From assembly GCA_037015955.1 (NCBI GenBank), contig CP143548.1, positions 1,916,001 to 1,980,000 of the forward strand: a DNA stretch of 64,000 nt, read 5' to 3'. Made by a program: the position numbers and the translations under genes. Below, one piece after another: positions 7,742 to 43,829 of this stretch. Under the pieces are notes generated by a model that had not been told where the DNA came from, searched no databases, and saw only the letters and a list, made by a program, of their open reading frames with translations. Within the stretch, counting starts at the first letter, position 1. Every line of letters starts with the position of its first letter. Origin of the DNA: Lachnospiraceae bacterium JLR.KK008. Its GTDB lineage: Bacteria > Bacillota > Clostridia > Lachnospirales > Lachnospiraceae.

Positions 7742-8017
7742 TGGAATCTGCAAGTTCCTTGTCAAATTTTTATCCATAGGCGTATATTATTGCATCGTGA
7801 AAGCAGGCATCCCCTATCAGGACCCGCCGTTGGAGTTACAGATACAGTATACTGTCAATATGAGGATTGGCGAAACACTGGTGAAGGATGGTTGCCTGCT
7901 TTCTATATGCGGAGGAATTGCCCGTTTGCTTTATAAATTGATGTTAAAGAAAAGGCACAGGAAATAGAACCCCGGTTTTCAGAATTGTAGTTACTCGAAT
8001 TTACCGCGTTATCAAAT
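7742..8017. other. Intergenic stretch with no recognised gene
   Basis: Between the ylxM promoter region and the IS21-like end I see only a plus-strand open frame of about 56 codons from a GTG near 7799 to a TAG at 7967-7969. It has no ribosome-binding site and no family I recognise. It may be debris left by the insertions next door. Confidence 0.4.
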
Positions 8018-8095
8018 TGAATATTATCCTCCTTGGGAGCCACCAGTTTCCCGCTTGAGAGCCACCTGGAAGTTTCCACCTTGAGAGCCACCCCG
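8018..8095 (-). repeat. IS21-like right end with three subrepeats
   Basis: GAGCCACC recurs three times within 60 bases, each next to a TTCCACC-like or CTTGAGA-like block. The same arrangement occurs inverted at 16670-16750. Such stacked repeats are the transposase-binding sites of IS21-family ends. Confidence 0.75.
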
Positions 8096-8116
8096 GACAC
8101 AAGATATAGTAGTACT

Positions 8117-8146
8117 GCCTCTGTTGCTTCAAAATACAACAGAGGC
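8117..8146 (-). terminator. Hairpin after istB fragment
   Basis: GCCTCTGTTG (8117-8126) and CAACAGAGGC (8137-8146) form a perfect 10-bp stem with a 10-base loop just past the istB stop. No clear T-run follows, so the terminator reading is tentative. Confidence 0.5.
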
Positions 8147-8173
8147 AATAACATGTATAGCTTATTCAGACGA

Positions 8174-8343
8174 TCATGATTCTATTTCGTCAACAAGCTT
8201 TTTCAGTTTCTTTGAATCATACAGCTTTCTCAGGTTTGTTTCATTTGTAGGGATTTCATAGGCATTATGGATAATCCTGTCCATGATGGAATCTGCCTGC
8301 GTTCCGCCGCCGAGCCTGCCATGCCATTCATCGAACGGAATCG
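8174..8343 (-). pseudogene. istB: IstB C-terminal fragment (IS21 helper ATPase)
   Basis: The last 55 codons of an IstB-type AAA+ transposition helper remain. IPFDEWHGRLGG is followed by SIMDRIIHNAYEI, the usual IstB C-terminal block, and then a lysine-rich tail. The frame is fused upstream, near 8343, to the C-terminal part of an IS110 transposase, so the rest of istB and all of istA were lost. It is inactive. Confidence 0.8.
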
Positions 8344-8470
8344 CAGCATTGAACAGTAACGCTCGCAGCTTACTTCGGCCTCTTTTACTAATGGTCGTCT
8401 GTCCCTTATGCTTTCCCGAACTATTTTCCCGTAATGAAAGTCCGGCCAGTTTTTGTATCTGCCTTGGTGA
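8344..8470 (-). pseudogene. IS110-family transposase, C-terminal part (split gene)
   Basis: This piece encodes SPRQIQKLAGLSLRENSSGK and then HKGQTTISKRGRSKLRALLF, the Transposase_20 domain of IS110 enzymes, including the ENSSGK serine region thought to be catalytic. It is the missing continuation of the N-terminal part at 15507-16453. Joining the two across one GGTGA core restores ...VKRFESPRQIQKL... in frame. The end of this domain is itself lost at the fusion to istB near 8344. Confidence 0.88.
8466..8470. other. attL core (GGTGA) of the serine-recombinase element
   Basis: GGTGA here is repeated at 15507-15511. The flanking sequence outside both copies is IS110 coding sequence, and deletion between them rebuilds that gene exactly. 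Inside, GGAAGATTGTAGTAAA (8480-8495) mirrors the other end with 14 of 16 matches. Confidence 0.85.
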
Positions 8471-8703
8471 AGCCAATCAGGAAGATTGTAGTAAATCAGA
8501 ACACGCACAACATAATCACTAAGACGCATACCCACACGAACCTCAAAGCTGTGGACTTCGGCTTTTGCACAAAAAGAAAGGACAAGCCTATAGTGCCAGT
8601 ATTCAGAGTAGAAAAAGTTAAAGATTATACAATCATGCCATGTCGAATCCCCCTTGGGCATTCGACTCTCGCGGCAGTCGTCAAGGTCAAGCCAGCTTGA
8701 CTT

Positions 8704-9063
8704 TGACTCGTTGCTCGCGGAAATACCCACTTACGCAACCGCCAGTTATCCCTGCGGGCAAAAGGATTGCTCTGTCAAATGCTCTCATTGCCCCCGGAAT
8801 GTAATTTTACCCTGCAAGGGTTAGCTTATATCAACAAAGAGGGGTTAGACGCTATTACAACGATTATACACGAACTGGAGCAGGCAGGATATATTACCCG
8901 CAACAGAATACGCGATGAAAAGGAACAGCTTCGGGAAATGGAATATACAGTCTATTCTTCTCCAAAACTGAATGTCAGCTATGGCAATAATTCAATCGTG
9001 GAAAACCCTACACCGGAAAATCCAACATTGGATCTTCCAACACAGGGAAAACCAACGCAATAA
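8704..9063 (+). pseudogene. Fragment of replication-initiator-like HTH protein
   Basis: An open frame without a proper start reads HLRNRQLSLRAKGLLCQMLS, then LPPECNFTLQGLAYINKEG and LDAITTIIHELEQAGYI. This is the winged-helix region of RepA-like proteins carried by clostridial integrative elements. The Pro/Thr-rich linker (NPTLDLPTQGKPTQ) that normally leads to the C-terminal domain ends in a stop at 9061-9063. Further in-frame stops with recognisable linker residues (NIDI, NTKE, ITE) follow, which indicates decay. The N-terminus is also missing after a TGA. It is probably non-functional. Confidence 0.7.
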
Positions 9064-9426
9064 AATATAGATATATAAAATACTAAAGAATAAATTACAG
9101 AATGATAAATTATCTATTCCTTTCCTATCCGTTCTTTTGATTTTTAATTAGATTATCCCTATCGCATGAGGGGAATGGAAGGGAAAAGAGGTTGATACAA
9201 CATAGATATTCATTTATGCCTTAATTACCCTTTATCAACGGCAGACAGCCAAGTCAAGGATTTACCGCTTTAGCGGCGTTTACGTCCTTGATTTGGCTGT
9301 TTGGCGTTGATAGTCTGGGAAAAGCATAAAGAAGAATTTGCGGGGCTTGTGTTCCTGCCTGCTGAAGATATGGCGTAATATTTATATTTTCTTTTTGCAA
9401 TTAACCTTAACATTTTAAAAAAACTA
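9064..9426. other. Non-coding stretch with long hairpin
   Basis: This region holds the decayed tail of the replication-initiator gene (to about 9170) and then the long inverted repeat described separately. I see no intact gene. Confidence 0.5.
9246..9299. repeat. Nested 15-bp inverted repeat (possible replication or transfer origin)
   Basis: CAGCCAAGTCAAGGA (9246-9260) pairs with TCCTTGATTTGGCTG (9285-9299) with one mismatch. The loop holds a second stem, CCGCT (9265-9269) and AGCGG (9272-9276). The structure lies just downstream of the replication-initiator remnant. It could be a single- or double-strand origin or an origin of transfer; no T-run follows, so a terminator is less likely. Confidence 0.6.
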
Positions 9427-9455
9427 TTGACAAGCAAAAAAAAAATCCTTATAAT
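9427..9455 (+). promoter_or_regulatory. Consensus promoter for the MATE operon
   Basis: TTGACA (9427-9432) and TATAAT (9450-9455) match consensus fully, with a 17-base A-rich spacer. The predicted start is near 9462, about 45 bases before the attenuator hairpin. Confidence 0.9.
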
Positions 9456-9493
9456 CTTTTTGTAAAATTTTGAGTGGACTTTTCCAGATTGAT

Positions 9494-9598
9494 ATGTCAT
9501 CTTTTTGCCACACAGTTATCAGTTTGATAACTGTGTGGCTTTTTGTTGTTATAATTCGGAAAATGTTTATCAAATTTTGGAGGATATATGATGGCTGA
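9494..9598 (+). CDS. Candidate 34-residue leader peptide
   Basis: An ATG at 9494 opens a 34-codon frame that runs through both arms of the terminator hairpin and stops at TGA 9596-9598, inside the first codons of the MATE gene. It reads MSSFCHTVISLITVW, then a hydrophobic LFVVIIRKM stretch and a basic tail. No strong ribosome-binding site precedes it (only GATT/CCAG sequence). Its position fits ribosome-mediated attenuation, but translation is unproven and the frame could be open by chance. Confidence 0.4.
   Translation: MSSFCHTVISLITVWLFVVIIRKMFIKFWRIYDG
9507..9550 (+). terminator. Leader terminator (attenuator) before the MATE operon
   Basis: GCCACACAGTTATCA (9507-9521) and TGATAACTGTGTGGC (9525-9539) make a perfect 15-bp stem with a 3-base loop, followed by TTTTTGTTGTT. 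It lies between the promoter at 9427-9455 and the MATE start at 9591. Most transcripts should therefore stop here unless an anti-terminator state forms. Confidence 0.85.
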
Positions 9599-10949
9599 AA
9601 ATAAAATGGAAGTTATGCCAGTTGGAAAGCTGATTTTTGAAATGTCATTACCGCCACTATTTTCCATGTTTCTTCAATATTCATACAATTTGTTAGACAG
9701 TGCTTTTGTCGCCCAGTTAAGCGAGAACGCATTAACGGCTGTTTCTCTGTCTTTTCCAATCACAACATTAATGAATGCGGTATCTATTTGGATTGGGGTT
9801 GGTATAAATGTCATAATTGCGGGACATCTTGGAAAACGTGAACAAGAAGAAGCAAATAAAACGGTTACTCTTGGACTGATCCTTTCCTTTTTGGTTGGCA
9901 TTATTTTAAATATAACGGTATTACTAATTATACCCCAATACTTCAAATCGTTTACTGAAAATAACGATATTTATACTTTGTGCATGGAGTATATGGGTGT
10001 TTGTTCTTTCATGCAGATACCAAACATGGTTCATATCGTTATTCAAAAAATGATACAGGCAACCGGGAACATGATTGAACCCATGTTGTTTCAACTGACG
10101 GGTGTTATAACCAATTTCATTTTTGACCCACTTCTTATTTTTGGAATAGGTTTTTTCCCGGCAATGGGTATTAAAGGAGCTGCTACGGCAACAGTTTTGG
10201 GATATTCTGTTTCAATGGTTTTGGCATTTATTATGTTTTTAAAAGCAAAACATAAAATAGCACTTAAAACAGTTGGATTTCGTATTGAATGGAGCATTGT
10301 ACAAAAAATAATTATTTTAGGGCTGCCTTCTTTTATTATGAATGCCCTAAACGCTTTTACCGTAACGATTGTAAATCTGTTTTTAGTCGCATATTCAGAT
10401 ACGAGCATTGCTTTTTTTGGAGCATATTTTAAAATACAGCAGTTAATTATTATGACTATTAATGGATTAATACAAGGCTGTTTGCCCATTATGCGATTTA
10501 ATTATGGAGCAGGAAATTTAAAAAGGCTTCAATCAGTTTTTCGATACAGTACAATTTTAGTAACTTCTCTAATGATGTTTGGAACATTAATTATCATGCT
10601 GTTTCCGACACAGATTTTGAGTTTGTTTATGGCTTCGGAAAAAATGCGTTCTTATGGGATTATGGCAATGCGGATTATGGCAACAGGTTATTTATTTTGC
10701 GGGCTTTCGACAATGATTTCGACTTATATGCAAGCGATTGAAAGAGTGTTGCCAAGCATTATGATACAAATATTCAGACAGATGTTTTTTTTGATACCTA
10801 TTATGTGGATTTTAGAAAAAGCATTACTAATCATTGGTATTTGGATTGCATTTCCAGTTACTGAATTATTGACGTTTGTTGCAGCAGTCATTCTATTTAT
10901 GAGATTGAAATTTCAAAATAATAATAAAGATATAGTTGGAGGTAAATAA
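9591..10949 (+). CDS. MATE family efflux transporter (first copy)
   Basis: This is a 452-residue, 12-helix multidrug and toxin extrusion protein, which exports drugs in exchange for sodium or protons. The MATE blocks LFSMFLQYSYNLLDSAFVAQ and FIFDPLLIFGIGFFPAMGIK mark the two homologous halves. GGAGG lies seven bases before the ATG at 9591, so this is preferred to the adjacent ATG at 9588. It opens the cargo operon; the GNAT gene starts two bases after its stop codon. The substrate is unknown. Codon use is AT-rich compared with host genes. Confidence 0.93.
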   Translation: MAENKMEVMPVGKLIFEMSLPPLFSMFLQYSYNLLDSAFVAQLSENALTAVSLSFPITTLMNAVSIWIGVGINVIIAGHLGKREQEEANKTVTLGLILSFLVGIILNITVLLIIPQYFKSFTENNDIYTLCMEYMGVCSFMQIPNMVHIVIQKMIQATGNMIEPMLFQLTGVITNFIFDPLLIFGIGFFPAMGIKGAATATVLGYSVSMVLAFIMFLKAKHKIALKTVGFRIEWSIVQKIIILGLPSFIMNALNAFTVTIVNLFLVAYSDTSIAFFGAYFKIQQLIIMTINGLIQGCLPIMRFNYGAGNLKRLQSVFRYSTILVTSLMMFGTLIIMLFPTQILSLFMASEKMRSYGIMAMRIMATGYLFCGLSTMISTYMQAIERVLPSIMIQIFRQMFFLIPIMWILEKALLIIGIWIAFPVTELLTFVAAVILFMRLKFQNNNKDIVGGK

Positions 10950-10951
10950 AA

Positions 10952-11359
10952 ATGTACAAGGAAGATACATCTTTTACAATTAAAACGGGGGGTGAAAATA
11001 TGTCCCCAAAAGAGGTAGTAAATCTTTTAAGGCAAACTGTATGGGCGAAAGACCGAAAAAAAGAGGCTATCATCAAATCATTAAATCATTCAATCTGCTA
11101 CGGTGCATTTACAAAAAACGGACAACAAGTTGGATTTGCCAGAGTGATTACTGATTATGCAACGCATTTTTACATTTGTGATGTAGTTGTAAAAAAAGAA
11201 TTTCGTAATAAAGGTATAGGCAGGCAGCTTCTTAAAACAATTACGGAAAATGAAGATTTAAAACCATTGTTAGGAATGCTGATAACCGAAAATGCAGAAA
11301 AATTTTATGAGCCTTTTGGTTTTACAAAAAATCCTATTTGTTTTATGACAAACAAATAG
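10952..11359 (+). CDS. GNAT family N-acetyltransferase
   Basis: The 135-residue protein has a GNAT fold: VGFARVITDYATHFYICDVV, then the acetyl-CoA binding motif EFRNKGIGRQLL (R-x-x-G-x-G type). It ends with FYEPFGFTKNP, typical of small acetyltransferases related to YjdJ/PaiA-like proteins. The Shine-Dalgarno GGAGG overlaps the end of the first MATE gene. It sits between two efflux pumps, so modification of the same toxic compound is plausible, but the substrate is not known. Confidence 0.88.
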   Translation: MYKEDTSFTIKTGGENMSPKEVVNLLRQTVWAKDRKKEAIIKSLNHSICYGAFTKNGQQVGFARVITDYATHFYICDVVVKKEFRNKGIGRQLLKTITENEDLKPLLGMLITENAEKFYEPFGFTKNPICFMTNK

Positions 11360-11401
11360 ATACACGTTTTTTTATGTTAGCAAATTAAGGGAGGAAATAA
11401 A

Positions 11402-12733
11402 ATGGACGAAAAATTTATGAAAGAAAAACCTGTATTGCCATTAATTTTATCAATGTCACTTCCTATGGTACTCTCAATGTTGGTAAATTCTTTATATAAC
11501 ATTGTAGACAGCTTTTTTGTAGCCCAAATTAGTGAGGACGCTATGACGGCATTGTCATTAGTCTTTCCTGTTCAGAATTTTATCAATGCTGTTGCTATTG
11601 GCTTTGCCATAGGAATTAACGCAGCAATAGCTTTTTATTTGGGTACAGAAGAATATTCAAGGGCAAATATGGCAGCTACACAAGGCATGGTATTTGCTGT
11701 TATACATAGTATCGTTATTACCGTTAGTGTAATTTCTATTATTCCAACTTTTTTAAGAGTATTTACATCATCAGAACCCGTTATTGATTTCGGTATTCGA
11801 TATTCTGTTATAGCCTTTTCTTTTACTTTTATCATTATTTTAGGCGGAACATTTGAAAAAATATTCCAAGCCGTAGGTAATATGAAAGTAACTATGATAA
11901 GTATGATGTGTGGGTGTATCGCAAATATTATCTTAGACCCGGTGCTTATTTTTGGGATTGGTTTTTTCCCCGCAATGGGAATAGAGGGAGCAGCATTGGC
12001 AACCGGCATTGGACAGACAATAACGCTTGCTATCTATTTAGTTATCTACTTTGTGCGCCCTATTCGTATTCGCATTAGCAGACAATTTCTTACTTTTGAT
12101 AAAAAAACAGCTTTCAAACTGTATTTTGTTGGTATACCCGCAACTTTAAATATGGCTTTGCCGTCTGTTTTAATTTCAGCATTAAATTCCATTCTGTCCT
12201 CATATTCAGAGGTATATATTTTAGTTTTAGGAATTTATTATAAATTGCAGACTTTCCTATATCTTCCTGCCAATGGTATCATTCAAGGAATGCGTCCTTT
12301 AATTGGTTATAATTATGGAGCTGGTGAACAAAAGCGTGTTAAGAAAATTTATAATATTGTTCTTTGCATGAGTAGCGTAATCATGGTTTTAGGCACTATT
12401 ATCTGTTTGCTCATTCCCGGTCAACTAATAAACCTGTTTACTCATGTGCCGGAAACAATTCATACTGGGGAAATTGCACTCCGTGTTATTAGCGCAGGCT
12501 TTCTTGTTTCAGCTATTTCAGTAACTTCATCAGGTGCGTTAGAAGGATTAGGAAAGGGTATGCCGTCATTAATTATTTCTCTATGTCGTTATATTATCAT
12601 TATCATTCCGTCCGCATTTTTGTTTAGCAGACTTTTTGGTGCAGTCGGCGTATGGAATGCTTTTTGGGTGGCTGAATTTATTACCGCAATTATTTCATTT
12701 TTTATTTATCACAGAATAATAAAATGTAATTAG
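11402..12733 (+). CDS. MATE family efflux transporter (second copy)
   Basis: This second MATE pump is 443 residues and clearly paralogous to the first: SLYNIVDSFFVAQISEDAMT and ILDPVLIFGIGFFPAMGIEG occupy the same positions. GGGAGG precedes the ATG. It lies 42 bases after the GNAT gene in the same transcript. Two divergent pumps in one operon could widen substrate range or form a pair, though MATE proteins normally act alone. Confidence 0.93.
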   Translation: MDEKFMKEKPVLPLILSMSLPMVLSMLVNSLYNIVDSFFVAQISEDAMTALSLVFPVQNFINAVAIGFAIGINAAIAFYLGTEEYSRANMAATQGMVFAVIHSIVITVSVISIIPTFLRVFTSSEPVIDFGIRYSVIAFSFTFIIILGGTFEKIFQAVGNMKVTMISMMCGCIANIILDPVLIFGIGFFPAMGIEGAALATGIGQTITLAIYLVIYFVRPIRIRISRQFLTFDKKTAFKLYFVGIPATLNMALPSVLISALNSILSSYSEVYILVLGIYYKLQTFLYLPANGIIQGMRPLIGYNYGAGEQKRVKKIYNIVLCMSSVIMVLGTIICLLIPGQLINLFTHVPETIHTGEIALRVISAGFLVSAISVTSSGALEGLGKGMPSLIISLCRYIIIIIPSAFLFSRLFGAVGVWNAFWVAEFITAIISFFIYHRIIKCN

Positions 12734-12763
12734 AAAGACAACCGCATACCGGGAGGTGGTAAC

Positions 12764-13177
12764 GTGGGAAAATTGTTACTACTGACACTTAACGAACAAG
12801 AAGAAAAAATGATTGACAAAATCATAACGGCAATATCTGATTATATACAAATTGAACCTATGGAGATTACGCCCGCTTCCATGTTATCTTTTCCGGGACT
12901 GGAAATAAGGCAGAGCCAACACAGAGTAATTCAAGGCGGGGAAGATGTAAACCTTACCCGCCTTGAATATAATACCCTTGTATTCCTTGCTTCCAATCCC
13001 GGCATTGCATTAACACGGACACAGATATTTGAAGCCGTCTGGAACATGGATAGTGATAGCTGCCATTCAAGCGTTGCTAACGTGATTTACAACCTACGGA
13101 GAAAGATAGAGCCGGACTGCAAAAACCCGACCTATATAAAAACCGTGTTAGGTGTCGGCTATAAATTTGACGGATAA
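12764..13177 (+). CDS. Orphan OmpR-type winged-helix regulator
   Basis: The 137-residue protein has only the Trans_reg_C DNA-binding domain (about residues 45-137): VNLTRLEYNTLVFLASNPG, TRTQIFEAVW, VANVIYNLRRKIEP and YIKTVLGVGYKF. The receiver domain of a normal response regulator is absent; the first 40 residues show no phospho-acceptor site. It starts with GTG after GGGAGGTGGTAAC. Such orphan regulators are common in clostridial integrative elements. It may control the pump operon or the recombinase. Confidence 0.88.
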   Translation: MGKLLLLTLNEQEEKMIDKIITAISDYIQIEPMEITPASMLSFPGLEIRQSQHRVIQGGEDVNLTRLEYNTLVFLASNPGIALTRTQIFEAVWNMDSDSCHSSVANVIYNLRRKIEPDCKNPTYIKTVLGVGYKFDG

Positions 13178-13224
13178 ACGCCGGTAAATGATGATAGATA
13201 CATTGTCATTCCCCGGCGTTTTTT
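13177..13224 (+). terminator. Terminator of the cargo operon
   Basis: AACGCCGG (13177-13184) pairs with CCGGCGTT (13213-13220), followed by TTTT. It overlaps the stop codon of the winged-helix gene and should end the MATE-GNAT-MATE-regulator transcript. The loop is long (28 bases). Confidence 0.7.
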
Positions 13225-13626
13225 CTGCCATTGTGGACGCTTAGAAGCCCGTTTCCGGGCGGCAATGGTTATTTCTTTGTTGCACTACAAAACGCCCCGG
13301 AAATGCCCTTAAAACGCTCTTTGCTCCTGTTCTATGTCTGTATTTGTTTTCCATTTTCGTTTTTCTATAAGGGTTTGGGAAACTTCCCAACAAATAAAAA
13401 TTCTATACATTACTTCTCATAAAGATAGAGAATTTTTCGGGATTGAGTACTCAATCCCTATGCTTGCTATTCCGCTATTCTAAACTTTTTATAAATTTTC
13501 CCGGAAACTTTGCCATTTTTTACCTCCCGTGCGTAGTAAGTAGTAAAGGGGGAGTTTACGCTATTCCTGTATAGTGTACTTGCCGCTTCTCATAAAATTT
13601 AGGGAAACCGTCAAAGGAGAAAGTTT
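13225..13626. other. Non-coding stretch before the recombinase module
   Basis: I see no convincing gene in this region. It contains a perfect 20-base palindrome (13439-13458) and an AGCCCG/CGGGC hairpin near 13246. An open frame at 13231-13422 has no ribosome-binding site and no family resemblance. Confidence 0.5.
13439..13458. promoter_or_regulatory. Perfect 20-bp palindrome, candidate operator
   Basis: GGGATTGAGTACTCAATCCC is a perfect two-fold palindrome in the gap upstream of the small gene and recombinase. It could be an operator for the winged-helix regulator or another dimeric repressor. No T-run follows. Confidence 0.5.
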
Positions 13627-13842
13627 ATGCCAAGACCTAATAACTCTCCTACACCCGATACTCAGATACGAATGGAAAGCCTTTCCAATGAAGAAAAGCA
13701 TTTTATAGAAGAAAGTCTTTCCATAGATAAAATGAGGCTGACCGTTACCAACGTCTACCCCGCCTTTCAGAAAAAATCAGAACAGGAAACCCGACAGGAA
13801 ATCGGGGCAAGGCTCTATCAGATTTTCAAAAAATATGCGTAA
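13627..13842 (+). CDS. Small protein upstream of the recombinase
   Basis: This 71-residue, charged protein (SLSNEEKHFIEESLSIDKMR, then VTNVYPAFQKKS) has AGGAG seven bases before its ATG. It ends 75 bases before the recombinase gene. I do not recognise the family. Its position next to a large serine recombinase makes a recombination directionality factor or other accessory role conceivable; small transposon-encoded proteins occupy similar places in Tn4451-type elements. There is no cysteine or membrane segment. Confidence 0.65.
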   Translation: MPRPNNSPTPDTQIRMESLSNEEKHFIEESLSIDKMRLTVTNVYPAFQKKSEQETRQEIGARLYQIFKKYA

Positions 13843-13917
13843 GCCCTTGCAAAACAGTCATGGAAACGATATGATTGTTTTGTGGATATGCGTCTTACGT
13901 TTTAGGAGGTAGATAGA

Positions 13918-15426
13918 ATGTACGACGCATTATATGCAAGACAGTCAATCGAAAAAAAGGACAGCATATCCGTAGAAAGCCAGCTTGAGTATTGCAGATA
14001 CGAAACCCACGGGGAAGCCTGTATTGAATATACGGACAGAGGTTTTTCGGGCAAAGACACCAACCGTCCCGGCTTTGAAAAAATGATGAATGATATTCGT
14101 GCAGGAAAAATCAAACGGGTTATTGTCTACAAACTCGACCGTATCAGCCGTTCCATTTTGGATTTTGCAAACATGATGGAGATATTTCAAAAGTATCATG
14201 TGGAGTTTGTTTCTTCCACTGAAAAATTTGACACGTCCACACCAATCGGCAGGGCAATGTTAAATATCTGTATCGTGTTCGCCCAACTGGAACGGGAAAC
14301 TATACAAAAGCGGGTAACGGACGCTTATTATGCAAGGTGCAAGCGCGGTTTTTACATGGGCGGGCGTATTCCCTACGGCTACCGTCTGACGAACACGGTC
14401 ATTGACAATATCCGCACGTCCATGTACGAGGAAGTCCAAGAGGAAAGCGAACAGCTAAAGCTGATTTACTCCATGTATGCGGACACGGACAATTCACTTG
14501 GGGATATTGTACGATACTTGAACGAACACCAGATTAAAAATCTGCGCGGCGCAAACTGGAATACCGCCCGTATCAGTGAAATGCTCCGCAATCCCGTGTA
14601 TGTGCAAGCCGATATTGACGTGTACCAGTTTTTCCAAAGTCAAGGTGCAAACATCTATAACCCGGCAAGTGACTTCACGGGTTACAATGCCTGCTATCTC
14701 TACAAAGGTACGGTTTCCACTTCAAGAAAACAGAGCGACCTGTCCGACAAAGAGATTGTGCTTGCGCCGCATAAGGGTTTTATCCCCTCTAAGACATGGT
14801 TAGCCTGCCGTATACGGTGTCTAAATAACCGACAGTCAACAAAGACTTGCAAGCCGAAAAACTCATGGCTTGTTGGTAAGGTAAAATGCGGCAAATGCGG
14901 TTATGCGCTAACAATCCGTAAGGCGAAAACAAAGTGGGGACGCTACTTTGTTTGCAGCCAGTCGGGAAGCCGCGGAAGCAACTGCACCGGGGCAGGCTGT
15001 ACGGTTTATGCAGACGTTTTAGAGGAATATATGCTTGGTGCAATTAAGGATAGACTGTCAGAGTTTCAGAAACTTTCCTGTCTATCTGAAACAGGAGAAG
15101 AACAAAAGCAAATGACGAAAAAAATCCGTCTGACACAGATTGAGGAAGAAATCGAAGAACTTCTCTCCAAAGTGTCCGGGGCAAGCGGCGTTCTGATGAA
15201 ATACATAGATGAAAAAGTATCAGAACTGGACGCAGAGCGGAAAGCCTTGCAGGAAGAAATCGTTACGGCAAATGTCACAGACACAGAGGACAGATTGAAG
15301 CAGATAACCAATCATGTAAAAACATGGGAAACGCTTTCTTTCGAGGACAGACAGGCGGTAGTCGATACGCTTATCAAAGTTATCCGCATTGCAGACGGAA
15401 ACATTGAAATCACTTGGAACATATAA
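13918..15426 (+). CDS. Large serine recombinase (site-specific integrase)
   Basis: This 502-residue enzyme catalyses integration and excision by serine-mediated strand exchange. The catalytic domain has LYARQS with the nucleophile near Ser10, then YTDRGFSGKDTNRPGFEKMM and VYKLDRISRS. The Recombinase domain follows with YARCKRGFYMGGRIPYGYRL. A zinc ribbon (CGKCGYALTIRK, FVCSQSGSRGSNCTG) and a C-terminal coiled coil (about residues 400-470) complete the TnpX/TndX-like layout. AGGAGG precedes the ATG. The gene ends 80 bases from the attR core at 15507, the usual arrangement. Confidence 0.95.
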   Translation: MYDALYARQSIEKKDSISVESQLEYCRYETHGEACIEYTDRGFSGKDTNRPGFEKMMNDIRAGKIKRVIVYKLDRISRSILDFANMMEIFQKYHVEFVSSTEKFDTSTPIGRAMLNICIVFAQLERETIQKRVTDAYYARCKRGFYMGGRIPYGYRLTNTVIDNIRTSMYEEVQEESEQLKLIYSMYADTDNSLGDIVRYLNEHQIKNLRGANWNTARISEMLRNPVYVQADIDVYQFFQSQGANIYNPASDFTGYNACYLYKGTVSTSRKQSDLSDKEIVLAPHKGFIPSKTWLACRIRCLNNRQSTKTCKPKNSWLVGKVKCGKCGYALTIRKAKTKWGRYFVCSQSGSRGSNCTGAGCTVYADVLEEYMLGAIKDRLSEFQKLSCLSETGEEQKQMTKKIRLTQIEEEIEELLSKVSGASGVLMKYIDEKVSELDAERKALQEEIVTANVTDTEDRLKQITNHVKTWETLSFEDRQAVVDTLIKVIRIADGNIEITWNI

Positions 15427-15441
15427 CCATTAGCCATGAAA

Positions 15442-15496
15442 GATTGAAGTACGGCATTTTGAGGGAAATATTTTATGAGATATTTTTACTTCAATC
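15442..15496. repeat. Inverted repeat at the right end of the element
   Basis: GATTGAAGT (15442-15450) and ACTTCAATC (15488-15496) flank a 37-base AT-rich spacer. The outer arm is part of the 16-base TTTACTTCAATCCTCC (15485-15500) that mirrors the left end. This may be a recombinase-binding site or the recombinase gene terminator. Confidence 0.6.
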
Positions 15497-15506
15497 CTCC
15501 CGTTTC

Positions 15507-15511
15507 GGTGA
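15507..15511. other. attR core (GGTGA) of the serine-recombinase element
   Basis: This is the second copy of the core found at 8466-8470. To its right the sequence resumes the IS110 gene (TTCGAAACG...), continuous in frame with the piece left of 8470. Confidence 0.85.
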
Positions 15512-16453
15512 TTCGAAACGCTTCACATCACCAACCTCCGCCAAAAATCCGGCTACCGTGATTACTCCTATCCCTTTGATGGCAAGCATCTGCTCGCTTT
15601 CGGGTATCTTTTTACACAAACCTGTTATCTCGTCCATTATGGAATCAAGCTGTGCCATCTTGTATTCATAATCCGCAAGCAATAACTTCATTTCATACTC
15701 AGCAGCCGAAGAGCCTTTCCTTAAGCCAATGCTTCGTCTGGCTGTTTCACACAGGGTCGTTGCCCGTTTCATTCCAACAGCTCTTAACTTTGCATCACGC
15801 CAGATTTGATTGATTCTTTCCGCTCCAAGCTCCATGATTGCCTTCGGAGTACAAGCAACTTTCAAAAGCAACATACTGCTTTGTGCTTCATAGTCCCCAA
15901 AAACTTCCTTGTATTCAGGAAAATATCTGGCAAACCATCTGGCAAATCTGTTTTTGATCTGGGTAAGTTCCCTAGTGAGTCTCTTACGATTGGCCACCAT
16001 AATTCTTAAATCTGCATACACACCATCCGGTGTATACGGTGCAGAATATCTTCCCTCAATGACAAGCTTCTCTATCACCTTAGGGTCTTTTCTGTCATTC
16101 TTACTTTGGCTGTTGTCATCCAGTTCCTTGGTCTGCTTTACCGCATAGGGGTTAACCATAACCAGAAGGATGCCCTCATCCTCAAGATAAGCGCCAAGGT
16201 CAAACCAGTAATGACCTGTTGGTTCGATTCCTACTATTGCATCTGACTTTTTGTTTTTGTCCTGTAACCTCTGCATCCAGCTTTTGAAGTTTTCGAAACC
16301 TTCCCTGCTGTTACTGAATTTAAAGACTTTCCCAAGTTCAATGCCGCGCCAGTCAAAAGCCCTGGCATACTGTGTAGTACTTCCAATATCAATTCCAACT
16401 ACCAAAGTTGATTCTTTTACTTGATTGATTCTCTGATTTTGTTTACAATTCAT
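15507..16453 (-). pseudogene. IS110-family transposase, N-terminal part (split gene)
   Basis: The DEDD RuvC-like domain opens with VVGIDIGSTTQYARAFDW. It continues with AIVGIEPTGHYWFDLGAYL, VNPYAVKQTKE and NDRKDPKVIEKL, the standard IS110 blocks. A coiled stretch and the start of Transposase_20 (LAIKGIGVITVAGFLAEVGD) follow. At 15511 the gene is interrupted by the serine-recombinase element; the frame then reads SPKRED and stops at 15491. The continuation lies at 8344-8470. AGGAG lies 12 bases before the ATG. The enzyme is inactive because the catalytic serine region is on the far side of the insertion. Confidence 0.92.
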
Positions 16454-16474
16454 TTATGGGTGTCTCCTTTGAAC

Positions 16475-16509
16475 AATGATTTTTATTAACCGCCAAGTTA
16501 ACAATCATT
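16475..16509 (-). ncRNA. Stem-loop in IS110 5' non-coding end
   Basis: AATGATT (16475-16481) pairs with AATCATT (16503-16509), and inside TTAAC (16486-16490) pairs with GTTAA (16497-16501). The two stems are separated by a small internal loop. It lies 22 bases before the transposase ATG and, with the larger structure at 16567-16626, forms a candidate bridge RNA region. Confidence 0.4.
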
Positions 16510-37826: not shown

Positions 37827-38093
37827 ATTTCTATTCCTCCTTTTAAATACTCCCCTCTTTGCTTATCTTATGCTCCATATCACATATTTTGCATAGTTTC
37901 TTTTGATAATCTTATCATACGACAGAAAGATTAAAAGAACATTAAAGGGGAATAAAAAATATAGTGAAATAAAAGAGTCAAATTTTCCAAATTCATATCG
38001 GTTTCCACCAGAGAAAGTGACGCGATGCTTGTCGCGCCTGTCTATCTGCGATATAATAAAAGAAGAATTTTACGAATGAAAGGAAACCGCTTT

Positions 38094-38423
38094 ATGGAAT
38101 CTATTTTAGTGTCACTTCTAAATACCATCGTATCCTATGCCATCTTATTGTTTGAGTTTGTGGGTGTATTCATTATCATCATCGCCTGTCTCCATGGTAT
38201 TGTGGACTACATCCGCAAAAATTCAGATATTCGTCTGAACCTCGCCAAGGGGCTGGCCATGGGCCTGGAATTTAAGCTCGGCAGTGAGATCCTCAGAACG
38301 GTAGCCGTAAGAGAATTTCGGGAAATCCTTATCGTAGCCAGCATTATCGCCCTGAGGGCGCTGTTGACTTTCCTCATCCACTGGGAAATCAAAAACGAGG
38401 AACATGACAAGGAAGAAAAATAG
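38094..38423 (+). CDS. DUF1622 family membrane protein
   Basis: The 109-residue protein has three membrane helices, with IVSYAILLFEFVGVFIIIIA first. LAKGLAMGLEFKLGSEILRT and IALRALLTFLIHWEIK match DUF1622. AAGGA lies nine bases before the ATG at 38094; upstream ATGs in frame (38076, 38025) lack better sites. The function is unknown. It is monocistronic and ends before a bidirectional terminator. Confidence 0.82.
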   Translation: MESILVSLLNTIVSYAILLFEFVGVFIIIIACLHGIVDYIRKNSDIRLNLAKGLAMGLEFKLGSEILRTVAVREFREILIVASIIALRALLTFLIHWEIKNEEHDKEEK

Positions 38424-38582: not shown

Positions 38583-40001
38583 TTATACCGGATAAGCGCC
38601 GTTTTTCGTATCGGCCTCTGTCATATCCACTTTTTCCTGCTGCGCCTGACGATACTTAAAGAAGTCAGTTGCAACCTGCGGGAACAGTGCGTAGGACAAC
38701 ACGTCCTCATCCTGCTGTTTCCATTCTTTCATTTCGGATTCCAGTTTATCCATCTCATTCTCGATCAAGTCAGCCGGACGGCAGGTAATTCTCTTCTCAC
38801 CCGGAATAACCTTATCGATAACTTCCTGACTCATCGGTTTTACTGTCTGGCCATATTCACCGCGGAGCACTGCTTTCGTCTCCTTTGTCGCCATCTTGTA
38901 TCTCTCACCCATCAGTACGTTAAATACAGCCTGGGTACCAACGATCTGAGAAGACGGTGTAACGAGAGGCGGCTCACCGAGGTCTTTCCGTACGGCCGGA
39001 ATCTCCCGAAGCACATCATAGTATTTATCTTCCGCATTCTGCTCTTTCAACTGGCTCACCATATTGGACAGCATACCGCCCGGTACCTGGTAGAGAAGCG
39101 TCTTAATATCCACGCCCATCACCTTCGGATTGAGCAGGCCGTTTGCCAGACACTCGTCTCTGTACGGTCTGAAGTAATCAGCGATCTCAGCGAGAATATT
39201 CTGGTCATACCCGGTATCATACGGCGTACCCTTAAATGTCTCAACCAACACTTCCGTTGCCGGCTGGGAAGTTCCCATCGCAAACGGAGAAATCGCACAG
39301 TCAATCACATCAACGCCTGCTTCCACCGCCTTCAGATATGTCATGGAAGCGACGCCGGAAGTATAATGCGTATGTAACTGGATCGGCAGCTTCGTCGCGC
39401 CCTTCATAGCTGCAATCATCTCGGATGCCTTATAAGGCACTAGCAGACCGGCCATATCTTTGATACAGATAGAATCCGCGCCCATCTCCTCGATCTTCTT
39501 CGCCATATCCACCCAGTACTCCATCGTATAGGCATCACCGAGCGTATAGGAAAGCGCTACCTGAGCATGGCCTCTGCCTTCCTGTTTCTTAATCTTGTTT
39601 GTCGCATTGACTGCCGCCTGCAGATTGCGCAGATCGTTCAGGCAGTCAAAAATACGGATAATATCGATACCGTTGGCGATCGACTTCTCAACGAAGCTGT
39701 CTACCACGTCATCTGCATATGGTCTGTAACCGAGAATATTCTGTCCACGGAACAGCATCTGCAATTTTGTATTTTTAAAGCCGTCACGCAGCTTGCGCAG
39801 TCTGTCCCACGGATCTTCCTTCAGGAAACGCAGCGATGCGTCAAACGTAGCGCCTCCCCAGCACTCTACTGCATGGTAGCCGACCTGATCCATCTTTTCC
39901 ACGATCGGAAGCATCATGTCGGTAGGCATTCTCGTCGCAATCAGTGACTGATGCGCGTCACGCAAAACGGTTTCCATTATTTTAATTGGTTTCTTTTCCA
40001 T
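38583..40001 (-). CDS. oadA: Oxaloacetate decarboxylase alpha-type carboxyltransferase
   Basis: This 472-residue enzyme carries the HMGL-like TIM barrel of pyruvate carboxylase/oxaloacetate decarboxylase: RDAHQSLIATRM and CIKDMAGLLVPYKASEMI near the metal-binding site, and QLHTHYTSGVASMTYLKA. The conserved carboxylase domain follows. The usual C-terminal biotinyl domain is absent; the biotin carrier is a separate gene at 41215-41589. It would transfer CO2 from oxaloacetate (or pyruvate) to biotin. It is the last gene of the operon. Confidence 0.93.
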   Translation of the reverse strand: MEKKPIKIMETVLRDAHQSLIATRMPTDMMLPIVEKMDQVGYHAVECWGGATFDASLRFLKEDPWDRLRKLRDGFKNTKLQMLFRGQNILGYRPYADDVVDSFVEKSIANGIDIIRIFDCLNDLRNLQAAVNATNKIKKQEGRGHAQVALSYTLGDAYTMEYWVDMAKKIEEMGADSICIKDMAGLLVPYKASEMIAAMKGATKLPIQLHTHYTSGVASMTYLKAVEAGVDVIDCAISPFAMGTSQPATEVLVETFKGTPYDTGYDQNILAEIADYFRPYRDECLANGLLNPKVMGVDIKTLLYQVPGGMLSNMVSQLKEQNAEDKYYDVLREIPAVRKDLGEPPLVTPSSQIVGTQAVFNVLMGERYKMATKETKAVLRGEYGQTVKPMSQEVIDKVIPGEKRITCRPADLIENEMDKLESEMKEWKQQDEDVLSYALFPQVATDFFKYRQAQQEKVDMTEADTKNGAYPV

Positions 40002-40020
40002 TTTTCATTTTCCTCCTGTC

Positions 40021-41172
40021 TTAGAATACGCCAAATACGGCCATAAATGTTCCGGCTGCCACTGCGGTACCAATAACGCCGGCTACGTTAGGTCCCATAG
40101 CGTGCATCAGCAGGAAGTTGGTAGGATCTGACTCCGCACCGACTTTCTGAGAGACTCTGGCTGCCATCGGCACTGCGGACACACCTGCGGAACCGATCAG
40201 AGGATTCACCTTACCACCCGACATCTTACACATGATCTTACCAAAGATAACGCCTGCCGCCGTACCGAAAGCAAAGGCAATCAGACCTAAAATGACGATC
40301 TTGATCGTATCCCAGTTCAGGAATGCCTCCGCACTTGTCGTTGCGCCTACGGAAGTACCGAGCAAAATAACGACAATATACATCAGTGCATTGGATGCCG
40401 TATCGGTCAACTGTCTGACAACGCCCGACTCCCGGAACAGATTACCGAGCATCAGCATACCAACCAAAGGCGCCGTCGTCGGAAGGATCATACATACGAC
40501 GATCGTAACGATAATTGGGAAAAGGATCTTCTCCAGTTTGGATACCGGACGAAGCTGCCCCATCTTGATCTTTCTCTCCTGCTCCGTCGTCAGCAGCTTC
40601 ATAATCGGTGGCTGAATAATCGGAACGAGAGACATATAGGAATATGCCGCAACTGCGATCGGTCCGAGCAGAGACGTCTGTCCCAGCTTACCTGCAAGGA
40701 AAATAGACGTCGGGCCGTCCGCTCCACCGATGATGGAGATAGCGGCGGCTGCCTTGTCGTTGAAATTCATTGCAATCGCACCAAAATACGCCGCAAAAAT
40801 ACCAAACTGCGCCGCTGCGCCGAGCAGAAAGCTCTTCGGATTCGCAATGAGAGGACCGAAATCAGTCATAGCGCCTACTCCCATGAAGATCAGGGAAGGA
40901 AGGATCGCCCATTCATCTAATAAATAGAAATAATACAGTAAGCCGCCTGCGCCGTTAGCAGAATCTTCGATTGACATCATAATGTCAGGATAGATGTTGA
41001 CGAGCAGCATACCGAATGCTATCGGAGTCAAAAGGAGCGGTTCAAATCCTTTTGCAATAGCAAGATAAAGAAATACACAAGCCACTGCAATCATAACGTA
41101 ATTTCCAATCGTCAGATTGAAAAATGCCGTCTGATGCACCAGATTGTCTAATGTTGTTGCTATATAAGACAT
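40021..41172 (-). CDS. oadB: Sodium-pumping decarboxylase beta subunit
   Basis: The 383-residue membrane subunit decarboxylates carboxybiotin and pumps sodium out. It has about nine to eleven helices. The conserved [20 protein letters not shown] lies in the sodium/carboxybiotin site, and [20 protein letters not shown] and [20 protein letters not shown] are further OadB signatures. It can be shared by oxaloacetate, methylmalonyl-CoA or glutaconyl-CoA decarboxylases, so the family alone does not reveal the substrate. Confidence 0.96.
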
Positions 41173-41214
41173 TTTATCGACCTCCTGTTGTCATTCGCGC
41201 TCACGTGACAGTAA

Positions 41215-41589
41215 TTAATTTAATGTTGCAAGCAAAGCGCCTGCCTCAACAGGATCACCCACTGCCACATCAATACTTGCCACCGTGCCGTCAGAAGGAG
41301 CGACAACCGGAATCTCCATCTTCATAGCTTCCAGGATTACAACAGGATTACCAGCCTTTAACGCCTGTCCCACACTTGCCTCGATCTTGAACACCTTACC
41401 TGCCGCACCGGCCTCTACCTTAATGCTGCCTGCTGCGCCGGATGCCTTGGGTGCTGCCGCCGGAGCTGCCTTGGGTGCTGCTTTCGGTGCAGCCTTCGGA
41501 GCCGCTGCAGGTGCTGCACCTGTGGATGCTCCCTCCTCTACTACTACATCATATACGTTTCCATTTACGGTAATGGTATAATTTTTCAT
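41215..41589 (-). CDS. Biotin carboxyl carrier protein (decarboxylase gamma)
   Basis: The 124-residue protein has an N-terminal beta strand, a flexible Ala/Pro/Lys linker (APAAAPKAAPKAAPKAAP), and a biotinyl domain with ILEAMKMEIPVVAP, where the Lys of AMKM is biotinylated. It carries the carboxyl group between the carboxyltransferases and OadB. The linker is encoded by low-complexity GCN/CCN codons. Confidence 0.94.
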   Translation of the reverse strand: MKNYTITVNGNVYDVVVEEGASTGAAPAAAPKAAPKAAPKAAPAAAPKASGAAGSIKVEAGAAGKVFKIEASVGQALKAGNPVVILEAMKMEIPVVAPSDGTVASIDVAVGDPVEAGALLATLN

Positions 41590-41608
41590 CTCAATATCCT
41601 CCTGTTCG

Positions 41609-42376
41609 TTAGGCTCTCTGCCATTTATTCGTATTTGCTCTTCTGATACTCCTTACCACAAATCCGTCTGTGGAAGCAGCGCCCTCGCTGGCAGCAATGG
41701 CTGCTGCGATCACGGCAACAAGTTCCAGATCGTCTGTCAGATCTTCTTCCTCTGCAGCGACCGGTGCAGCGGCTACTGCCGCTGGTGCTTCTTTCTTCTC
41801 CTCAGGCTGTTTGCTCTTTTTAGAGAATGCCGCCTGGATCTTCGGTATATATACAAATGCAGAAATGATGATGCTGATCAGAATCAGTACGGTAAACACG
41901 GTGCCCATACCGATCACGGTGTTCAGCGCCGCCGTTGTCATCAATTCCCCAAAAGAATATTCCACATTCGTGGCGATGCTCGTCGCCTCGATCGTTCCGT
42001 TCTTTTTGTCGATCTCCCAGATGATCTCCACTTTCGCATCTCTGACAGAGCCGTGTACCGATACGGTGTCGGTGACTGTCATGTTGTCATACTCTATCTC
42101 GTGGCCTGTGATCTCCTGGAAAGTACCCATATCATCCTGTGCGGACTTCCAGCCTCTGATCGCTGCGGCATACATATCGTCCGTCAGTTCCAGATCCTCT
42201 TCCGTCACTTCGATCAGGGTGAAGCCACTGAGCTGTTGTATCTCCCGCTCCGCCAGGGCGATCACTTGTTCCTTCGGGACCATCCGCATCGCCGCCGGCT
42301 CTTTCTCCTCGGAGCCGCAGGCCGTAAGACCCAGAACACAGGCAATCATACCTAATACTAACAGCAATTTTTTCAT
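41609..42376 (-). CDS. OadG-like subunit with lipoprotein-type N-terminus
   Basis: The 255-residue protein starts with a lipoprotein signal (LVLGMIACVLGLTACGSE). About 110 residues of extracytoplasmic domain follow, then a membrane helix (TVFTVLILISIIISAFVYIP), and an Ala/Glu-rich tail (EEKKEAPAAVAAAPVAAEEE). The last residues VVRSIRRANTNKWQRA resemble a C-terminal OadG/MmdD tail. OadG normally has some 80-130 residues, so the exported domain is an addition. GGATGA precedes the ATG at 42376. Confidence 0.75.
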   Translation of the reverse strand: MKKLLLVLGMIACVLGLTACGSEEKEPAAMRMVPKEQVIALAEREIQQLSGFTLIEVTEEDLELTDDMYAAAIRGWKSAQDDMGTFQEITGHEIEYDNMTVTDTVSVHGSVRDAKVEIIWEIDKKNGTIEATSIATNVEYSFGELMTTAALNTVIGMGTVFTVLILISIIISAFVYIPKIQAAFSKKSKQPEEKKEAPAAVAAAPVAAEEEDLTDDLELVAVIAAAIAASEGAASTDGFVVRSIRRANTNKWQRA

Positions 42377-42398
42377 ATTAAGTATCATCCTTTCTTAA

Positions 42399-43829
42399 TT
42401 ATACTGTTCCATGCTTCTTAGCCGGACGATCTTCTCTCTTTGTAAACAGCATCTCAAAAGCGCCAATTATGTACTTTCTCGTCTCTGCCGCTTCCACGAT
42501 CTCATCCACATATCCTCTTCTGGCTGCACTTTCCACGCTCGTCTGCAGCTTGGCATATTCTGCCGCACATGCGTCGATCGCCTCCGCACCCTGTCCGTCG
42601 CAGATGATCTTCGCTGCCAGTTTGGCATCCATCATGCCGATCTCGGCATCCGGCCAGGCGATCGTAATGTCTGCGCCGATTGCTTTGGAATTCATTGTCA
42701 CATAAGCACTGCCATATGCTTTGCCGATGATCACATTGACTTTCGGAACAGTAGCGCCCGCAAATGCCGCCGTCAGTTTTGCCGCTGCTTTGGCAATCCC
42801 TTTTTCGGAGCACAGTGTCGCTTCATATCCCTTTACGTTAGTCAGCGACAATACCGGAATTTCAAACGCATCACAGAAATTGACAAAATCAGCCGCTTTC
42901 TCACAGCCCTTTTTGGTCAGGACAGCGTCAAACTTGTCCGCCACTTTGCCTTCTTCATCATAGACTTCCGTCCTGTTGGCAACGGCTCCTACCGTCATCC
43001 CGTTTAACTTAATAAATCCTGTCACCATTTCTTTCGCATAGTTCTCTTTGATCTCAAAGAAGACATTGTTGTCGGAAATCGTCGACAGGGCAATGGAGGT
43101 ATCTCCCACACAGTTTGCAAGGTCTTCACACGCTCTGTTCAAATCATCCGTGCACTCTGTGTAAGAGCTGTCGTCTTCATTGTTCGCCGGCAGCATGGAA
43201 ACAAGTTCACGAATCTTAGCCAGTACGGTCGCCTCATCAGCAACGACATCTGCCACGCCTGTCTCTCCGCTCTGGAATGCCGCAGACGCACTGTCACATT
43301 TCTGTGTCGTATTGCCTTCCAGCGCATTCGGTGCATTGACAAACAGTTTTGCTTTCTTTTCTTCCATAAAAGTGAAATCCACAAGGCTGGAAGCAACGGC
43401 AAGCCCGCCGCCGCACACGCCAAAAACAGCGTTGATCTGCGGAATCACGCCCGATGCCATCACCTGTTTTTTATAGATCTCGCCAAAACCGTTCAAAGCG
43501 TCCGTCGCTTCCTGCAGTCTGAGTCCCGCAGACTCGATCAGTCCGATGACAGGTGCGCCTGTCTTTAACGCCAGATCGTAGAGGTTTGCAATTTTCTTTG
43601 CATGCATTTCGCCGACACTGCCGTTTAATACGGAAGCGTCCTGACTGTATACATACACAAGACTGCCGTCGATCACTCCGTAACCGGTGACAACACCGTC
43701 AGAAGGAGTTTCCGTCTGTTTCAGATTAAAATCTGTGGCTCTGGCAGTAATGCGCGCACCGATTTCAACGAAACTGTTTTCATCGAGCAAAGCTGTGATT
43801 CTTTGACTCGCTTGTGAAGTAGTACTCAT
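42399..43829 (-). CDS. Acyl-CoA carboxyltransferase (MmdA/PccB-like)
   Basis: The 476-residue protein is a crotonase-fold carboxyltransferase: GAPVIGLIESAGLRLQEATD in the N-terminal half and IIGKAYGSAYVTMNSKAIGA with ITIAWPDAEIGMM in the C-terminal half. Such subunits remove CO2 from methylmalonyl-, malonyl- or glutaconyl-CoA and load it on biotin. GGAGGG precedes the ATG at 43829; a longer reading to 43895 has no site. It leads the operon, ahead of OadG-like, BCCP, OadB and OadA genes. Confidence 0.9.
   Translation of the reverse strand: MSTTSQASQRITALLDENSFVEIGARITARATDFNLKQTETPSDGVVTGYGVIDGSLVYVYSQDASVLNGSVGEMHAKKIANLYDLALKTGAPVIGLIESAGLRLQEATDALNGFGEIYKKQVMASGVIPQINAVFGVCGGGLAVASSLVDFTFMEEKKAKLFVNAPNALEGNTTQKCDSASAAFQSGETGVADVVADEATVLAKIRELVSMLPANNEDDSSYTECTDDLNRACEDLANCVGDTSIALSTISDNNVFFEIKENYAKEMVTGFIKLNGMTVGAVANRTEVYDEEGKVADKFDAVLTKKGCEKAADFVNFCDAFEIPVLSLTNVKGYEATLCSEKGIAKAAAKLTAAFAGATVPKVNVIIGKAYGSAYVTMNSKAIGADITIAWPDAEIGMMDAKLAAKIICDGQGAEAIDACAAEYAKLQTSVESAARRGYVDEIVEAAETRKYIIGAFEMLFTKREDRPAKKHGTV

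Follow-up and report, generated by a model that had tools for sequence, protein, structure and literature searches.

The 64,000-nucleotide (nt) stretch of the Lachnospiraceae bacterium JLR.KK008 genome analysed here (contig CP143548.1, positions 1,916,001 to 1,980,000; hereafter the window) carries a five-gene operon in which the parts of a Na+-translocating biotin-dependent decarboxylase lie together with two classes of carboxyltransferase. An initial annotation had placed these genes in one operon and proposed that both carboxyltransferases share a single biotin carboxyl carrier protein (BCCP) and a single OadB. All five genes are present on the minus strand, separated by intergenic gaps of 10, 19, 42 and 19 nt, and profiles match each to its family (lengths in amino acids, aa):

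42399..43829, minus strand: acyl-CoA-type carboxyltransferase of a divergent subfamily, 476 aa (PF01039, 347 bits; TIGR01117, 410.6 bits)
41609..42388, minus strand: OadG/MmdD-like membrane anchor, 259 aa (PF04277, 77.6 bits)
41215..41589, minus strand: BCCP with the motif EAMKM, 124 aa (PF00364, 59.8 bits)
40021..41172, minus strand: OadB, Na+-translocating carboxybiotin decarboxylase, 383 aa (PF03977, 511.8 bits)
38583..40001, minus strand: OadA/5S-type carboxyltransferase (oxaloacetate/pyruvate) without a biotin domain, 472 aa (HMGL-like and PF02436; NF008985, 744.7 bits)

Conservation of the five-gene order, which had been suggested as a check, was assessed in the best 80 of at least 584 loci, a sample drawn mostly from records titled Lachnospiraceae and biased to near relatives. 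The order is complete in 70 of these 80 closest loci (69 by script, plus L039, in which OadG was confirmed on inspection; OadG is also present in L021). The remaining ten loci end at most 5.5 kb behind the first gene and are apparently incomplete for that reason.

Across the whole genome, a single contig of 3.19 Mb that is 99.17% complete, the Biotin_lipoyl profile PF00364 has one match, the BCCP of the operon. The single carrier of the initial annotation thus holds genome-wide, and the same search found none of the separate carriers that would have spoken against it. Since no other carrier was detected, one carrier would serve all carboxyltransferases of this organism. The biotin carboxylase profile PF02785 (Biotin_carb_C) has no match in the genome, with 13 of 14 control genomes positive, and a search with the AccC protein returns only weak ATP-grasp-like matches (best E = 9e-11, in a 1070-aa frame). 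Pyruvate carboxylase was likewise not seen, a search with the OadA protein returning only OadA itself. PF01039 (Carboxyl_trans) finds two proteins in the genome, the operon enzyme and a canonical 12S-like protein at C1:480925-482592 (612 bits) that adjoins flagellar and ribosomal-protein genes (neighbours named by eye). The fatty-acid genes fabK-fabD-fabG-fabF-fabZ-fabK-fabH are contiguous and stand without acc genes (ketoacyl synthase match at C1:21976; names by eye except fabF). Because FabD uses malonyl-CoA, the organism should require a supply of this compound, yet no acetyl-CoA carboxylase is recognisable in its genome.

By the sequence tests made, OadA, OadB, OadG and BCCP belong to the decarboxylase Na+ pumps. 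OadA passes the oxaloacetate decarboxylase alpha model NF008985 (cut-off 718), stays below the cut-off of the TIGR01108 oadA model, which includes the biotin domain (660 versus 756.5), and fails the curated transcarboxylase 5S model NF008984 (542.6 bits, cut-off 827). Its best PDB matches are 2nx9, 5ks8 and 1rqb, and in an alignment to 2nx9 and 1rqb, judged by eye, it conserves the Asp, Lys and His-x-His that we take to be the active site (metal ligands and active-site lysine). OadB keeps five of the six residues listed as essential for Salmonella OadB in the available portion of PMC7274780 (E44, D152, N261, S332 and N362, with E44 placed by eye), and the essential R304 is replaced by Q254. 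The Na+-site residues are among those kept, D152, S332 and N362 corresponding to Asp203, Ser382 and Asn412 of Salmonella OadB, and OadB is predicted to couple Na+ transport to decarboxylation. The carrier, with its EAMKM motif, and the anchor OadG are both encoded with OadB, as in Na+-translocating biotin decarboxylases. OadG has a lipoprotein-type N-terminus, an extra N-terminal domain and a C-terminal VVRSIRR motif; Cys24, the membrane segment and the C-terminal VRS are conserved in an alignment of 27 relatives. The extra domain, of about 120 aa, precedes the membrane segment and is poorly conserved in the same alignment.

To place the operon in the family, we surveyed 250 genomes, about one per genus, and did not detect biotin carboxylase in 82 of them (called negative below, the other 168 positive). 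Failure of the profile was rejected as the cause, given that the AccC protein itself gives only weak matches in the 44 negative genomes that have FabD. The best E-values there lie between 1e-16 and 4e-6, and most of these matches fall in frames of about 1070 aa that are probably carbamoyl-phosphate synthase; in five positive-control genomes, E is below 1e-200. Presence of the operon was rejected as a mark of the negative genomes, both carboxyltransferases being near-universal in the two groups: at E-value cuts set by hand, high-scoring matches to the acyl-CoA-type enzyme occur in 71 of 82 negative and 151 of 168 positive genomes (p = 0.52), and those to OadA in 80 negative and 152 positive genomes (p = 0.065).

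Fatty-acid synthesis divides the negative genomes more clearly. The FabD comparison covered 80 of the 82, the present genome (G000) being judged separately and G076 left out; FabD was found in 43 (39 above cut-off) and in none of the other 37, which gives 44 FabD-positive and 37 FabD-negative genomes with the present one included. Among the 44, 28 have AccDA (fused or split) and 14 have a canonical 12S protein above 450 bits, so that one or the other is present in 42 of 44 FabD-positive genomes but in only 4 of 37 FabD-negative ones (Fisher test, 6e-16, uncorrected for relatedness). G080 has a further 12S-type protein that is cut by the contig end (409 bits; 51% identical to 12S and 31% to the operon enzyme), and counting it raises the contrast to 43 of 44 versus 4 of 37 (4e-17, also uncorrected). 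The four FabD-negative exceptions are G092, G121 and G190, each with 12S, and G223, with a piece of AccA. AccDA lies within 4 kb of fabD in 26 of the 28 genomes (the exceptions being G081, with about 12 kb between them, and G031, where the contig ends), and BLAST recognised 19 of the 28 in fetched sequence. Exactly one carrier below E = 1e-10 was found in 36 of the 42 genomes, on the same contig as the operon enzyme or OadA and at most a few kb from it; the six genomes with more than one are G187, G105, G185, G246, G058 and G025. Separately, 36 of the 37 FabD-negative genomes (each at least 90% complete) keep an OadA-type protein, G181 being without it, and these genomes may depend on fatty acids from outside.

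The fab loci themselves point in the same direction. We fetched 20 positive and 24 negative loci. In 17 of the 20 positive loci, 435-707 nt separate fabF from fabZ, and fabZ is followed by accC and accDA; the gap between fabF and fabZ leaves room for accB, which BLAST recognised in 3 of the 17. The same gap is at most 160 nt in 23 of the 24 negative loci (G103 is rearranged, with 836 nt), none of the 24 contains accC, and 17 contain AccDA without accB or accC. The seven negative loci without AccDA are those of G000, G065, G091, G111 and G157, which have 12S elsewhere, of G080, which has the cut 12S, and of G114, which has neither. In G025, the last 4 nt of fabD are shared with a 12S gene. Because fab clusters keep accDA without accC, and because the G025 12S gene overlaps fabD, fatty-acid synthesis appears to have kept a carboxyltransferase but not the carrier and biotin carboxylase that belonged to it. 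A split pair in G025 was rejected as AccD/AccA, since it adjoins OadB, a carrier and a 556-aa open reading frame, and this genome is counted through its 12S. The corresponding locus L190 (G025:C14:327001-339000) contains OadB, the carrier, the 556-aa frame and two small genes of carboxyltransferase-like type; judged by eye, it looks like a cluster for a biotin-dependent malonate decarboxylase.

The retained AccDA has also changed in sequence. Comparison of the 231 columns conserved in AccDA of positive genomes singled out two that are altered in three or more of the four negative clades: the proline and the glycine of a P-x-G motif that precedes the zinc ribbon. All 16 positive sequences have the glycine and none of the 17 negative ones does, and the proline is lost in 14 of the 17 negatives; positive G087 (masked bases, frame above 1000 aa) was left out. 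The zinc-ribbon cysteine pattern is present in all 17 negatives, and the exact patterns of two glycine motifs fail in a few. The P-x-G change may be a sign of a changed AccDA partner. A tree of the fab proteins needs seven switches between the two states, and its starred branches force at least six. It holds 23 negative and 17 positive loci (positive G160, G149 and G208 had too few fab genes and were left out), was built by a quick method with SH-aLRT support only, and has a long branch for G103. An accDA left without accB and accC reads as the outcome of loss, the switch counts themselves not separating gain from loss.

The acyl-CoA-type enzyme of the operon stands apart from this pattern. 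Its PDB neighbours are PCC beta and 12S, and in the structure model (mean pLDDT 72) it has the PCC-beta/12S fold. Identification as methylmalonyl-CoA decarboxylase alpha (mmdA) was rejected, as the TIGR01117 score of 410.6 bits falls far short of the 998.8 cut-off; the operon proteins also score too low for the equivalog models of MmdC (84.5, cut-off 200) and MmdD (27.6, cut-off 150). The first residue of the enzyme corresponds to residue 43 of the genome's canonical 12S protein, and 89 members of its family differ from 18 12S-type proteins at about 30 positions that are nearly invariant in the latter, with Ser for Gly445 (within KAYGGAY), Gly for Arg440 and AGLRL in place of GGARI among the changes. 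It occurs in genomes without FabD and beside acetyl-CoA carboxylase genes alike. Being divergent and also present in FabD-negative genomes, it is not clearly the acyl-CoA partner of the carrier, and we regard it as a putative further acceptor or donor. In two genomes with the carrier present (G206:C132 and G227:C17), the match to this gene contains one and two in-frame stops, respectively, and the gene may be decaying there.

The likelier carboxyl donor is OadA. Five genomes (G030, G042, G176, G196 and G238) have a BCCP-OadB-OadA cluster, and PF01039 finds no acyl-CoA carboxyltransferase in any of them; hence, OadA of the operon type would serve BCCP by itself. The protein is present at full score in 43 of the 44 FabD-positive negative genomes, compared with 152 of 168 positive genomes. 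In the one remaining, G031, the match is weak (E = 3e-55) and a contig end cuts the operon inside oadB. These counts give a hint that biotin-carboxylase-less fatty-acid synthesis requires OadA. The operon acyl-CoA-type enzyme is not a general donor, given that G187 and G246 do without it; in both, a glutaconyl-CoA-type enzyme could act as donor instead. The decarboxylation of oxaloacetate is given as -34 kJ/mol in the portion of PMC8100219 available to us, which makes carboxyl transfer from oxaloacetate to acetyl-CoA without ATP plausible.

We consider it probable, with considerable room for doubt, that the operon encodes a biotin-dependent decarboxylase that pumps Na+, and that its carrier, besides serving the pump, also supplies carboxyl groups to an acetyl-CoA carboxylase working without biotin carboxylase. 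OadA would move CO2 from oxaloacetate to the biotin of BCCP, releasing pyruvate, and the carboxybiotin would then have two outlets: decarboxylation by OadB/OadG, with Na+ being pumped, or transfer by an acyl-CoA carboxyltransferase to acetyl-CoA, yielding malonyl-CoA for fatty-acid synthesis. The second outlet would most likely be the canonical 12S protein in the present genome and, in related genera, the AccDA kept in the fab cluster after the loss of accB and accC. Gene content, order and co-occurrence can be read from the sequences directly; every catalytic step, the direction of flux and the preference of 12S for acetyl-CoA are what we infer from them. The initial annotation is supported in its shared carrier and only partly in its choice of partner. 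Of its two ideas, a transcarboxylase-like cycle and a pump fed by both operon enzymes, transcarboxylase-like transfer is favoured, because biotin carboxylase was not found while fatty-acid genes are present, with the reservation that the acyl-CoA-type enzyme encoded in the operon may not be the partner. OadA as the enzyme feeding BCCP and OadB is supported by the five genomes without Carboxyl_trans, and the likelier acyl-CoA partner is 12S encoded elsewhere or AccDA.

Several observations weigh against this proposal. The present genome has no AccDA, and an acetyl-CoA role for its 12S would be carried over from relatives. G114 has FabD and neither AccDA nor 12S. Nine of the 28 AccDA assignments (G056, G074, G089, G098, G136, G185, G206, G221 and G230) rest on score and nearness to fabD. 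The AccDA tree needs four switches and forces only two. OadA is near-universal, and its excess in the FabD-positive negative genomes has p = 0.05 if G031 is disregarded and p = 0.21 if that genome is scored as having no OadA. Finally, the operon also occurs in most positive genomes and in FabD-negative genomes, and malonyl-CoA supply is therefore not its general or original role.

The same genes could instead form a Na+-driven acetyl-CoA carboxylase, in which OadB would run in reverse, the Na+ gradient would drive carboxylation of BCCP with CO2, AccDA or 12S would make malonyl-CoA, and OadA would be dispensable. Dimroth and Hilpert are said to have described in 1984 the in-vitro reversal of such pumps, including acetyl-CoA carboxylation; the five of six reported essential residues kept by OadB and its position next to the carrier in all 19 operon loci where a carrier was recognised also agree with reversal. 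OadA, dispensable under reversal, is at full score in 43 of the 44 FabD-positive negative genomes and missing in 16 of 168 positive ones (p = 0.05 or 0.21), which is only a hint against it. Overall, we regard reversal as unlikely. A plain dual-substrate pump, with OadA and the operon acyl-CoA enzyme both loading BCCP, OadB pumping Na+, and malonyl-CoA coming from an unrecognised source, would fit the cohesion of the five genes in 70 of 80 relatives and their presence in FabD-negative genomes. It leaves unexplained why AccDA or 12S follows FabD and why fab clusters contain accDA alone, and the departure of the operon enzyme from canonical 12S at about 30 nearly invariant positions also argues against it, making it decidedly improbable in our view.

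The operon acyl-CoA-type enzyme might also be the acetyl-CoA carboxyltransferase of the organism, with 12S serving another acyl-CoA. G114, in which FabD is accompanied only by the operon-type carboxyltransferase, speaks for this, as either that enzyme or something unrecognised would make malonyl-CoA there. However, those of the examined negative genomes that have the operon-type enzyme alone, with neither AccDA nor 12S, are nearly always without FabD, and we give this explanation very little credence. Transfer from OadA through BCCP to 12S or AccDA remains the reading we prefer.

The proposed route has parts in common with three known systems. The transcarboxylase of Propionibacterium consists of a 12S acyl-CoA carboxyltransferase, a 5S 2-oxoacid carboxyltransferase and a 1.3S biotin carrier. 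As in that enzyme, the present genome, in which biotin carboxylase was not detected, combines a 12S-type protein (encoded outside the operon), a 5S/OadA-type protein without a biotin domain and a small separate carrier, and no biotin carboxylase would be needed. Unlike in Propionibacterium, the carrier and the 5S-type protein lie in an operon with OadB/OadG and a second, divergent acyl-CoA-type enzyme, the predicted acceptor is acetyl-CoA (for fatty acids) rather than propionyl-CoA, and OadA scores below the 5S model cut-off. In the transcarboxylase, the three subunits form a soluble complex that moves CO2 between acyl-CoA and oxaloacetate. With the Na+-translocating oxaloacetate, methylmalonyl-CoA and glutaconyl-CoA decarboxylases the operon shares OadB, OadG, BCCP and a carboxyltransferase, but it differs in having two carboxyltransferase classes in one operon, a biotin domain separate from OadA, and the sole carrier detected in the genome. 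The likeness to the AccABCD acetyl-CoA carboxylase lies in the AccDA that relatives keep in the fab cluster, whereas biotin carboxylase and AccB were not found and the predicted donor is oxaloacetate instead of bicarbonate and ATP.

Outside the family, Thermotoga maritima, one of the control genomes, is positive for Carboxyl_trans, Biotin_lipoyl, ketoacyl synthase and FabD and is the sole control without biotin carboxylase (PF02785). It is a cultured organism and belongs to another phylum, and the likeness is one of these domain profiles. The acetyl-CoA carboxylase-type biotin carboxylase domain is reported as absent in Thermotogales, with no replacement carboxyl donor proposed, in the portion of PMC3199775 available to us. 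We found no description of a natural oxaloacetate-fed, biotin-carboxylase-free acetyl-CoA carboxylase in the open-licence PMC literature, of which coverage was partial, and take this as weak evidence of novelty.

Elsewhere in the window, a DUF1622 membrane-protein gene (38025-38423, plus strand) is convergent to the 3' end of the operon, and an Rfam scan of all 64 kb gave no matches. A low-GC island at about 8000-16500 (33% at 10-12 kb) encodes two MATE multidrug-exporter-like proteins and an acetyltransferase, together with a large serine recombinase (13918-15426) and an IS110-like transposase (15491-16453), all named by eye, and looks like a mobile element.

ATP-dependent biotin carboxylation is the textbook entry step of fatty-acid synthesis and a drug target. 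Here, we consider it likely, if a shade less so than the mechanism itself, that fatty-acid synthesis in 44 of the 250 sampled family genomes, and perhaps in Thermotoga too, takes the carboxyl group of malonyl-CoA from oxaloacetate via the carrier of the pump, that one carrier is thus shared between energy conservation and membrane-lipid synthesis, and that this arrangement led to several losses of accB and accC. If true, about one-sixth of the sampled genera of a major gut family would bypass ATP-dependent biotin carboxylation, and such bacteria should be insensitive to biotin-carboxylase inhibitors. Metabolic models that score such genomes as being without acetyl-CoA carboxylase would be wrong, and lipid synthesis in these organisms would be linked both to the Na+ gradient and to the ratio of oxaloacetate to pyruvate.

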